A stretch of 42,216 nt of DNA. Source: Bacteroidales bacterium. Its GTDB lineage: Bacteria; Bacteroidota; Bacteroidia; Bacteroidales; VadinHA17. Below, piece after piece: positions 9,597 through 13,634 of the stretch (position 1 is its first letter; the number at the start of each line of letters is the position of its first letter). Position numbers and translations under genes: made by a program. Where the stretch lies: assembly GCA_012513795.1 (NCBI GenBank), contig JAAZBN010000143.1:1-42216 (forward strand). Direction: 5' to 3'. The notes beneath the pieces are model-generated. The model had not been told where the DNA came from. It was given only the letters and a program-made list of their open reading frames with translations, and searched no databases.

Positions 9597-9677
9597 ATCA
9601 GTCTGCCGTGGATAAAAGAATCAATGCCAATTTATAAATTAATTGCCACATTTGTATTTCAGTAGCAGCAGCGGAAA

Positions 9678-10811
9678 ATGATCATTGCAATCAATGCGCG
9701 TACGCTCAGGGCAGTGCCCCGTGACGGTATCGGGTGGTTCACCCTTGAGGTTGTCAGCGGGATGGTCCGTAACCACCCTGAGCACCGGTTTGTCCTGATC
9801 GGCGACAGGAGGCCGGAGCCGCTTCCGGTCAGGGGTGACAATGTTGAATATGTGACCTTACCGTTACGGACAGTGCATCCGCTGCTCTGGCATGGATGGC
9901 ATGAGTATCTGTTGCCACCGGTGCTGAGGCGGACCGGGGCTGATGTTTTCATCGCACCTGACGGGATGATTCCGCTGAGAACGGATGTGCCATGTATTCC
10001 AGTGATCCATGACCTCAACCATGAGCACCGGCCCGGAGACATACCTGGCGCTGAGTGCAGGTATTACCGCAGGCTTTTCCCGCTCTTCGCGGGGAAGGGA
10101 GCACGTGTTGCAACTGTATCACATTTCTCGGCAGGCGACATTGCTGCGACATACGGGATCAGCCCGGACAAGATAGATGTCGTGCCGAACGGTGTTGCCG
10201 GGATTTTTTCTCCGCCGCAGCCTGGCGAGGCGGAGGAGACGCGGAGGCATTACACCGGTGGTAAGCCATATTTTCTGTTCGTAAGCAATTTTTCTCCGAG
10301 GAAGAATGTTGAAGCGGTGATCAGGGCATTTGAAATTTTCAGGCAGAGCGGAGGAGGAGAACAAGTTCTGTTGCTTGCCGGGCGGAGGCTTTACCTGACG
10401 CGTGAGATGGACAGGCACCTGGAGGCCTCCCCGTATGGCAAGGATATTGTCTTTACCGGTTCTGTAACGCGTGATGTGTTGCGCCGGCTCTACGGTGCTG
10501 CGGAGGCGCTGACCTTCGTGCCGCGGTTCGAGGGGTTTGGCATACCCGTAGTGGAGGCGCAGCGATGCGGTGTGCCGTGCATTCTGTCAGACAGCTCATC
10601 ACTCCCCGAGGTGAGCGGCGGCGCGGCACTCTGCGTCAGCCCCGCTGACGCAGGTGCCATAGCCGGGGCTATGGCACGCCTCGTCACCGACGGCGCGCTG
10701 CGCCGCCGTCTCGCTGACGAGGGATATGCCAACTCACTCAGGTACACCTGGGAACAGGCTGCGGAAGAAATGTGGAAATCAGTCATCAAAGCTACCGGGG
10801 GAGCCGCCTGA
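9678..10811 (+). CDS. glycosyltransferase family 4 (GT-B)
   Basis: FLFVSNFSPRKNVEAVIRAF and FVPRFEGFGIPVVEAQRCGVPCILSDSSSLPEV motifs. Confidence 0.92.
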   Translation: MIIAINARTLRAVPRDGIGWFTLEVVSGMVRNHPEHRFVLIGDRRPEPLPVRGDNVEYVTLPLRTVHPLLWHGWHEYLLPPVLRRTGADVFIAPDGMIPLRTDVPCIPVIHDLNHEHRPGDIPGAECRYYRRLFPLFAGKGARVATVSHFSAGDIAATYGISPDKIDVVPNGVAGIFSPPQPGEAEETRRHYTGGKPYFLFVSNFSPRKNVEAVIRAFEIFRQSGGGEQVLLLAGRRLYLTREMDRHLEASPYGKDIVFTGSVTRDVLRRLYGAAEALTFVPRFEGFGIPVVEAQRCGVPCILSDSSSLPEVSGGAALCVSPADAGAIAGAMARLVTDGALRRRLADEGYANSLRYTWEQAAEEMWKSVIKATGGAA

Positions 10812-11413
10812 TGCTTAAACCATTCTTCAGGGACGGCATCCGTGAAGCCGGTTGCGACGAGGCAGGGCGCGGATGCCTGGCAGGCCCCGTGTACGCTGCA
10901 GCAGTCATCCTCCCGAAGAGATACCGTAACAAAGAGCTCAATGACTCCAAGAAACTGACCGCCCGCCAGCGCGAGCGGCTCCGCACGGAAATCATATCAT
11001 CTGCCACCACCTGGTGCGTCGCCTCGTGCTCAAACACCGAGATAGATGAGATGAACATACTGCGCGCCTCTATCACCGCCATGCACAGGGCAATAGACGG
11101 GCTTGAACCCCGCCCGCTCCTGCTCCTGATAGACGGCAACAGGTTCTACACCTATGGAGATATCCCCCATCAGACAATAATAAAGGGTGACGCCACATAC
11201 CTGTCCATCGCGGCTGCATCAGTGCTGGCAAAGACGGAGCGTGACCATCGCATGGAGGAGCTTGACGCCCTCTGCCCCTGCTACGGGTGGCGGCAGAACA
11301 AGGGATATCCTACCCCGGAGCATCGCAGAGCCATTGCTGAATTCGGCCCCAGCCCGTTCCACCGGCTATCATTCAACCTGATTGACCTGCAGCGGGAACT
11401 CCCTTTCTTATAA
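10811..11413 (+). CDS. rnhB: ribonuclease HII
   Basis: EAGCDEAGRGCLAGPVYAAAVIL, LNDSKKLTARQRERL, LLLIDGN; ATG overlaps the upstream stop (TGATG at 10809-10813). Confidence 0.95.
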   Translation: MLKPFFRDGIREAGCDEAGRGCLAGPVYAAAVILPKRYRNKELNDSKKLTARQRERLRTEIISSATTWCVASCSNTEIDEMNILRASITAMHRAIDGLEPRPLLLLIDGNRFYTYGDIPHQTIIKGDATYLSIAAASVLAKTERDHRMEELDALCPCYGWRQNKGYPTPEHRRAIAEFGPSPFHRLSFNLIDLQRELPFL

Positions 11414-11489
11414 AATGTTAAAATCATTATTCCTGAGAATGTATTTTGATATCTTTGGTTCCAAACTTAAATCAACAACACCATAAATC

Positions 11490-13634
11490 ATGAGAAAACT
11501 ACTGGCAATTATTGTTATCCTTGTAACCTTCTCAGCCTCGCAGGCCAGGGCTGATGAGGGCATGTGGCTGCTGCCGCTCATCGAGAAGCTCAATATCGGC
11601 ACTATGACCGAGATGGGGCTCAAGCTGACAGCGGAAGACCTGTACAGCATCAACCAGGCAAGCGTTAAAGACGCCATCGTCATCTTCGGAGGCGGCTGTA
11701 CCGCTGAGATCGTCTCTCCTCACGGCCTGCTTCTTACCAACCACCACTGCGGTTATGGCCAGATCCAGAACCACAGCACAGTTGAGCATGACTATCTCAA
11801 TAACGGTTTCTGGGCCATGTCAAAGGAAGAGGAACTTCCCAATCCCGGCCTGTCAGTCACCTTCCTGGTGCGCATTGAAGATGTTACCTCAAGGGTACTT
11901 GGCAAGGTCAATCCAGACATGACCGAAGCGGCACGCCGCGAAGCCATCCAGGCTGAGAGCGCCGCCATCACCTCAGAGGCTACGAAGGGAACCCACTACA
12001 ACGCCCGCGTATCATCATTCTACAGCGGAAACCAGTATTTCCTGCTTATCTATGAGGTTTTCTCCGATGTCAGGCTTGTGGGAACACCCCCTAACTCAAT
12101 CGGGAAATACGGCCATGACTCTGATAACTGGATGTGGCCGCGCCATACCTGCGACTTCAGCGTTTTCAGGGTATATATGGGTCCTGACGGGAAACCGGCT
12201 CAGTACTCGAAGGACAATGTTCCGCTCAAACCGAAGCATTACCTGCCTGTCTCAATCAAGAACCTGCAGAAGAACGATTTTGCAATGGTAATGGGCTACC
12301 CCGGCACCACCACCAGGTACATGACATCGTACGAGGTTGACGAGGCAATGAAGATCACCAACGCCAACAGGGTAAAGATCCGTGGTGCACGCCAGGAGAT
12401 ATGGATGAAGGATATGATGGCAGACCCGAAGGTAAATATCCAGTATGCATCCAAATACGCCGGTTCATCCAATTACTGGAAGTTCTCAATCGGCCAGAAC
12501 GCCGGTCTCACCCGTCTGCGCACCGCAGAAAAGAAAGCGGCTTTCGAAGCTGAATACATGAAGTGGGTAAACGCTGATCCGGCCCGCAAGGCAAAATACG
12601 GCAATGCACTTTCCCTGATCGAAAACGCCGTTAAGGGAAGGGCCGAAAAGTACAACGTTTCCCAGTATATGAGAGAAGCATTGTCGACAGAACTGTTGGG
12701 CTTCGCCGGCCAGATGACCATGCTCGAGGAGGCCCTTGTAAAAAAGGATGCTGAGAGAATCAACGGCATGACAGGAAGGCTTAAGAGATCTGTTGAGAAT
12801 TTCTACGGTGATTATAACTATCCTACCGACCAGAAAACCACAAAGGCGATGCTGAAGCTCTACAGGACTGACATTGATCCGAAGTACTGGCCATCGTTCT
12901 ACAAGCTGATTGACACGAAATTCAAGGGAAACATCGACGCCTTCGTTGATAATATCTTTGCGAAGTCAATCTTTGTCTCACAGGAGAAACTGGCGGCATT
13001 TCTCGAGGCTCCCAGCCTGAAGGTCCTTCAGAAGGATCCTGCATTTATTGTTGCCAAATCAATCAACGAGATGAACTCGACATTAATGAAGGATCTCCAG
13101 GGATTCAGTGCTGACCTCTCAAAGGGGCAGCGTCTCTACATGGCCGGAGTAATGGAATACCAGCCTGACAAGACACAGTACCCTGATGCCAACTCCACCA
13201 TGAGGCTCACCTACGGTAAGGTACTCGACTACTACCCGTATGATGCAGTTCATTACAACTGGTATACGACCCTCGACGGCGTTGTGCAGAAATACAAGAA
13301 GGGTGATTATGAGTTTGATCTGCCGCAGCGGCTCATTGATCTCAACAACAAAAGGGAGTATGGCCGTTACGGTTCACCTGATGGCTACATGCCTGTATGT
13401 TTCATCACCAACAATGACATCACCGGTGGCAACTCAGGCAGTCCGGTCATTAATGGCAACGGCGAACTGATCGGTCTTGCCTTTGACGGCAACTGGGAAG
13501 CCATGACCGGAAACATAGCATTCGAACCTGACCTCCAGAGATGTATCAACGTAGACATACGCTACGTTCTCTGGGTGATTGACATCTATTCAGGGGCAGG
13601 GTATCTGCTCAATGAGATGGATATCAGGCAGTAA
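11490..13634 (+). CDS. S46 family serine dipeptidyl peptidase, DPP7-like
   Basis: TNHHCGYGQIQ catalytic His region, ITGGNSGSPVINGNGELIGLAFDGNWEAM catalytic Ser region; signal peptide. Confidence 0.93.
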   Translation: MRKLLAIIVILVTFSASQARADEGMWLLPLIEKLNIGTMTEMGLKLTAEDLYSINQASVKDAIVIFGGGCTAEIVSPHGLLLTNHHCGYGQIQNHSTVEHDYLNNGFWAMSKEEELPNPGLSVTFLVRIEDVTSRVLGKVNPDMTEAARREAIQAESAAITSEATKGTHYNARVSSFYSGNQYFLLIYEVFSDVRLVGTPPNSIGKYGHDSDNWMWPRHTCDFSVFRVYMGPDGKPAQYSKDNVPLKPKHYLPVSIKNLQKNDFAMVMGYPGTTTRYMTSYEVDEAMKITNANRVKIRGARQEIWMKDMMADPKVNIQYASKYAGSSNYWKFSIGQNAGLTRLRTAEKKAAFEAEYMKWVNADPARKAKYGNALSLIENAVKGRAEKYNVSQYMREALSTELLGFAGQMTMLEEALVKKDAERINGMTGRLKRSVENFYGDYNYPTDQKTTKAMLKLYRTDIDPKYWPSFYKLIDTKFKGNIDAFVDNIFAKSIFVSQEKLAAFLEAPSLKVLQKDPAFIVAKSINEMNSTLMKDLQGFSADLSKGQRLYMAGVMEYQPDKTQYPDANSTMRLTYGKVLDYYPYDAVHYNWYTTLDGVVQKYKKGDYEFDLPQRLIDLNNKREYGRYGSPDGYMPVCFITNNDITGGNSGSPVINGNGELIGLAFDGNWEAMTGNIAFEPDLQRCINVDIRYVLWVIDIYSGAGYLLNEMDIRQ

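Follow-up and report, generated by a model that had tools for sequence, protein, structure and literature searches.

A conserved four-way-junction RNA structure predicted within the reading frame of a Bacteroidales glycosyltransferase

Inverted repeats within a glycosyltransferase gene

The window, by which we mean the whole 42,216-nucleotide stretch of Bacteroidales DNA analysed here, comes from an assembly of 317 contigs (G000). It carries on its plus strand a gene for a GT4-family glycosyltransferase of 377 aa (9678-10811; Pfam PF00534, E = 1.1e-24; PF13439, E = 2.6e-13), whose stop is overlapped by the start of rnhB, encoding RNase HII (10811-11413, plus strand; Pfam PF01351, E = 1.6e-37). 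Orthologs of the glycosyltransferase were found in all relatives searched (60 of 60). A first-pass annotation had placed three consecutive inverted repeats within this coding sequence, and the Pfam matches bear out its choice of host gene. Palindrome 1 is present as claimed (arms 10631-10640/10644-10653; 10 of 10 positions complementary), together with its extension by GGCAC at 10625-10629 and GTGCC at 10654-10658 around a bulged T. Palindrome 2 is likewise present (arms 10654-10664/10667-10677; 11 of 11 complementary). Palindrome 3 (10679-10722, plus strand) exists in the window, with arms 10679-10690/10711-10722 complementary at 11 of 12 positions and an inner GACGGCG/CGCCGTC pairing, but it is not conserved; in most orthologs its complementarity is 3-9 of 12, and it lies outside the structure described below.

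We then compared the predicted fold of this region with shuffled sequences. The segment 10605-10720 folded at -82.8 kcal/mol vs -56.3 ± 3.9 kcal/mol for dinucleotide shuffles (z = -6.8; 0 of 200 shuffles), and none of 1000 synonymous-codon shuffles folded as well. All copies in the genus beat their synonymous shuffles (z = -5.4 to -9.1), so that for palindromes 1 and 2 the folding energy falls outside the synonymous range, and three outgroup copies gave z = 0.5, -0.02 and -0.05. Repeats of this kind are rare. In 415 kb, comprising the window and two same-genus relatives (G010 and G005), only 11 inverted repeats combined perfect arms of 10 or more with a loop no longer than 4. Five of them were this element or its orthologs. 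In these 415 kb the block and its two orthologs took stability ranks 1-3 among 12,168 scanning windows. A scan of 1.70 Mb of G005, half of that genome, placed its block first of 42,249 scanning windows by stability after GC correction. It was the sole member of the top 13 stable places to lie within a reading frame of at least 120 codons. Very stable windows outside such frames in G005 include L165:11041, L205:19641, L208:6161, L153:9641 and L163:41.

Palindromes 1 and 2 are arms of a four-way junction

An RNAalifold consensus was generated from 18 distinct full-length glycosyltransferases from the same genus of uncultured Bacteroidales (57-100% protein identity), one of them, L003, being almost identical to the gene in the window. 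The consensus is a four-way junction with 40 pairs that spans codons 313-344 (10615-10709, plus strand), also described here by pair counts, a covariance model (R1) and the third-position diversity of stems and loops. Palindromes 1 and 2 form two arms of this larger junction and, in a codon alignment, are kept in all 18 orthologs. The first-pass annotation had raised the idea that they fold as mutually exclusive structures; this idea is unneeded, as both coexist as neighbouring arms. It had missed the 15-bp closing stem.

The closing stem, P1 (10615-10629/10695-10709), was paired in 99.3% of cells, with two pairs showing double changes; the window copy has a single A.C mismatch at 10628/10696. 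P2, which corresponds to palindrome 1 (10630-10640/10644-10654, with a 3-nt loop at 10641-10643), was paired in 99.0% of cells and has two pairs with double changes, in L016-L019. P3, which corresponds to palindrome 2 (10655-10663/10668-10676, with a variable 4-nt loop at 10664-10667), was paired in 97.5% of cells and contains compensated wobble-wobble pairs at 10655/10676 and 10661/10670. P4 is a weak hairpin of 5 bp capped by a 3-nt loop (10681-10693; arms 10681-10685/10689-10693) that was paired in 92.2% of cells, with one double change, and its pairing probability was just 0.31 in the window's own 701-nt context. P1 adjoins P2 without unpaired bases, and stacking of the two could give a nearly unbroken helix of about 26 bp. 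The rnhB start lies about 100 nt 3' of the junction. An upstream strand, 10553-10564, could compete with the 5' strand of P1 for positions 10696-10707 of its 3' strand (87% of cells pair; 11 of 12 pairs well kept; one fixed A.G mismatch). This upstream strand encodes a conserved EAQR motif, and protein constraint may explain the pairing.

Base pairs are maintained by compensated changes

Across the 18 orthologs, 97.9% of cells were paired and both sides had changed in seven pairs. Cells with both sides changed numbered 21, vs 5.5 after shuffling, and none of 500 shuffles reached as many. Pairing dropped to 24-56% when partners were shifted by 1-3 columns, a comparison that favours the structure because the consensus came from these very sequences; for that reason the independent tests, namely third-position diversity and tree-based changes, weigh more. 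On a quick FastTree phylogeny built without codons 305-350, in which some nodes are weakly supported, nine branches carried changes on both sides that keep pairing, vs a mean of 1.27 and a maximum of 4 when the same columns were paired randomly. Covariation was thus beyond chance and beyond the shifted controls. In P2, CTGCGTCAGC/GCTGACGCAG is replaced by CTGCGCCGGC/GCCGGCGCAG in L017-L019, with L016 as an intermediate, and L021 shows a further compensated change from CATAGC/GCTATG to CATTGC/GCAATG. Compensated changes alter the amino acids encoded by P2 (V to A, S to G and D to G).

Codon and residue constraint follows the stems

Divergence at fourfold sites is about 0.5-0.7 across the gene (~0.58) and falls to 0.18-0.24 exactly over 10608-10712; among the eight closest orthologs it is 0.08-0.13 in this block vs about 0.55. 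Third-codon-position diversity was 0.11 at the 26 stem sites, 0.44 at the unpaired sites of the block, of which there are only six, and 0.47 elsewhere in the gene. On the basis of those six positions, synonymous constraint was limited to paired positions. The block has the lowest 32-codon third-position diversity (0.18); none of 264 control windows, drawn from four genes of the locus (the glycosyltransferase, rnhB, a flippase and an S46 peptidase), fell below 0.33. Four alanine codons are near fixed (GCA at 10650, GCC at 10656, GCT at 10668 and GCG at 10695; each in 17 or 18 of 18 genomes).

Constraint extends to the protein. Within the genus, amino-acid divergence was 0.157 in the block and 0.256 in the rest of the gene, whereas among 11 genes from other genera the block was the more variable part (0.603 and 0.507, respectively). 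The conservation of this protein stretch therefore accompanies the RNA structure. Codons and amino acids are frozen together because a third position in a stem is usually paired to a first or second position on the partner strand. Elsewhere in the protein, L007, L009, L011 and L014 carry 22-53 extra in-frame residues of short tandem-repeat sequence in an N-terminal loop at residues ~46-52; the window copy is without them.

The junction is confined to one genus

The covariance model found one copy each in 20 of 22 genomes of the genus (the second row reported per genome is the same place on the opposite strand), including all 13 genomes that are at least 90% complete. Two genomes gave no match: in G015 a gap of 95 N lies exactly over the structure (L020:2392-2486), and in G003, a 71%-complete assembly, the gene itself is missing. 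The G015 gap perhaps reflects hairpins hindering sequencing or assembly, and the same contig has other gaps. Under filters stricter than those of the genus search, no match was found in 76 other genomes of the family or in 392 genomes sampled from the order. A search of 9600-11500 against Rfam gave nothing at E values up to 1, and ARAGORN found no tRNA at the junction.

These results bear on the earlier suggestion of a selected mRNA structure governing the coupled rnhB start. Selection is supported by covariation, by the stem-limited synonymous constraint and by the synonymous-shuffle z, whereas the gene order with rnhB and S46 is common to genera without the junction, so nothing ties the junction to rnhB.

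RNA and DNA as acting forms

We then considered which strand the structure serves. G-U cells outnumbered A-C cells (36 vs 6), with nearly equal counts when taken by pairs (6 and 5), and the fold z was -6.8 on the plus strand and -5.7 on the minus strand. Wobble is used sparingly, as 14 of 18 sites able to become G-U never do, which is stricter than usual for RNA. From these comparisons of sequence, coding-strand RNA is more likely to be the acting form. Alternatively, the element could act in DNA, as a cruciform, as a folded single strand in replication or transfer, or as a multi-site protein-binding locus, the RNA being incidental. This reading, which we regard as unlikely, fits the perfect Watson-Crick arms that are kept with G-T intermediates mostly missing, the single copy per genome and the complementary structure that also folds on the minus strand. 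It fits poorly with the G-U pair that 12 of 18 genomes have midway along P1 (10625/10699; A.C in the complementary strand) and with the one that nine have at the base of P2 (10630/10654), and no insertion at the site was seen in any relative. There was also no GC-skew flip at the locus in G005 (C2), hence no sign of an origin or terminus, and a replication landmark was rejected on this basis.

A trans-acting small RNA, made or processed from this stretch of the mRNA and with the fold as its body, would account for the compact and stable fold, the single copy and the sharp boundaries. We give it a low probability, since no unpaired seed is conserved: diversity at unpaired third positions resembles that of the gene outside the block, and the loop of P3 varies. 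Weak scans also showed no promoter-like or terminator-like site standing out in the surrounding 700 bases and no match to a Bacteroidetes-type promoter nearby. The junction itself has no stem followed by a T run of the kind that makes an intrinsic terminator. A programmed frameshift was considered and rejected, the codon alignment having no conserved slippery heptamer before the fold.

The first-pass annotation had also proposed template-switch mutation. Neutral template switching that corrects the arms of quasipalindromes, with protein constraint blocking other changes, could let the structure persist without selection; it would yield Watson-Crick arms and would slow third positions that pair with first or second positions. 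We find this improbable, because the long-range P1 is kept as well as the short-loop hairpins (99.3% paired with arms 65 nt apart) and the G-U pairs at 10625/10699 and 10630/10654 persist uncorrected in at least half of the genomes. Few such palindromes exist at other places in the genomes, which gives no sign of a general correcting process, and the outgroups show no trace. The block is far more similar between species than the flanks are, as it would be if one copy had recently recombined or spread through the genus and so mimicked conservation. Its unpaired third positions, though, match the rest of the gene in diversity, and the compensated changes follow clades, which makes such an origin very improbable. 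Least credible is the in-frame insertion of a mobile element like the palindromic ones of Rickettsia; a small palindromic element was also among the causes first suggested. The palindromes do sit within the reading frame, but the block aligns ungapped to, and equals in length, outgroup genes without the structure, and the genome holds no second copy.

A proposed role in the mRNA

The junction is very probably under selection as a structure. The region 10615-10709 is best explained as a genus-specific, single-copy structured RNA element within the glycosyltransferase reading frame. That the structure is both selected and acts in cis in its mRNA is a joint claim to which we would give even chances. 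Selection very probably keeps the base pairs; P1 would stack on P2, with P3 and the weak P4 completing the junction, and any action in cis would take place in the glycosyltransferase-rnhB mRNA. Because the loops and the remaining unpaired positions are variable, a ligand pocket or a base-pairing seed is less likely, and with no terminator tail, promoter or slippery site, a mechanical role for the helix is left. The most plausible such role would be that of a double-stranded site for processing or decay control, for example by RNase III cleavage or as a barrier to 3'-5' exonucleases. A helix of about 26 bp would be long enough for RNase III. Alternatively, the junction may slow elongation and so set glycosyltransferase output against rnhB. 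Against the cis-acting mRNA reading, the junction is unpaired during translation and P4 is weak.

If the element is an RNA, the same stretch carries both a protein message and a folded-RNA message. Structured-RNA searches usually skip coding sequence. Because the fold restrains amino acids as well as synonymous codons, it offers a testable case of RNA structure steering protein evolution, and it cautions that residues conserved in protein alignments may be kept for RNA.

Relation to known structured elements

Large screens have already yielded candidate RNA structures that overlap coding regions in bacteria (Fremin and Kyrpides, 2022, PMC9067536; Fremin and Bhatt, 2021, PMC8040213), including palindromic candidates inside cas genes, one of them mostly in Bacteroidetes and near the end of cas6 (PMC9067536). 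Those candidates resemble the GT4 junction in being covariation-supported folds inside coding genes. They are set apart by description, as they come from CRISPR operons or human-microbiome data, while the four-way junction here belongs to a GT4 gene in one genus. Unlike those candidates as described, constraint on the GT4 junction follows stems and spares loops. Rickettsia palindromic elements are inserts present in repeated copies, both between genes and within genes, which they make longer (review PMC2229807). The GT4 junction is similarly a palindromic sequence within a reading frame, but it is single copy and adds no residues.

With the tRNA cloverleaf it shares a four-way junction of a closing stem and three arms, but its stem lengths are 15/11/9/5. 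The near-continuous helix of about 26 bp predicted for P1 on P2 would resemble the RNase III processing stems of bacterial mRNAs, which differ in that the GT4 junction lies inside a translated reading frame. The kind of element is thus known; within the reach of Rfam and of the open-access papers that were searched, the family, its shape and a codon and residue constraint that follows the stems appear to be new.

A second candidate in a GT2 gene

Scanning for stable places led to a second glycosyltransferase, a GT2 gene in G005 (L116:11745-13316), of which the window's own genome has a copy (L133; G000:C48). Its GC-rich, multi-branched fold (L116:12939-13092; G005:C2:72939-73092) lies in an alanine-rich stretch with nearly fixed codons. 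RNAalifold applied to 13 orthologs gave a junction whose closing stem is GC-rich (P1, GCGGCGGCGG..), with arms GACCGC/GCGGTC, GGCTGCGGC/GCCGCAGCC and ACGGCGGCGT-GCA-ACGCCGCCGT. In this junction 94.8% of cells were paired, third-position diversity was 0.14 in stems and 0.32 outside, and covariation was above 500 of 500 shuffles; its number of pairs with double changes was reached by 37 of 500 shuffles. Synonymous-shuffle z ranged from -1.0 to -3.7. Compensated changes were seen in L138 and L139, and the most divergent genus member, L143, is without the fold. On these alignments we regard the GT2 junction as a candidate, weaker than the GT4 junction.

A two-genome synonymous scan for further elements was too noisy at gene starts. 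The second glycosyltransferase candidate suggests that further such elements may exist in the genus. That large multi-branched folds in GT4 and GT2 reading frames form a genus-wide regulatory or processing device, undescribed before, for which selection has reshaped the proteins to be alanine-rich, is a tentative idea that we presently doubt. The GT2 protein also contains tandem-repeat-like inserts (GVTGEVAIPGAEEQVSLL..., within L116:11745-12300), as if such inserts were common in the genus.
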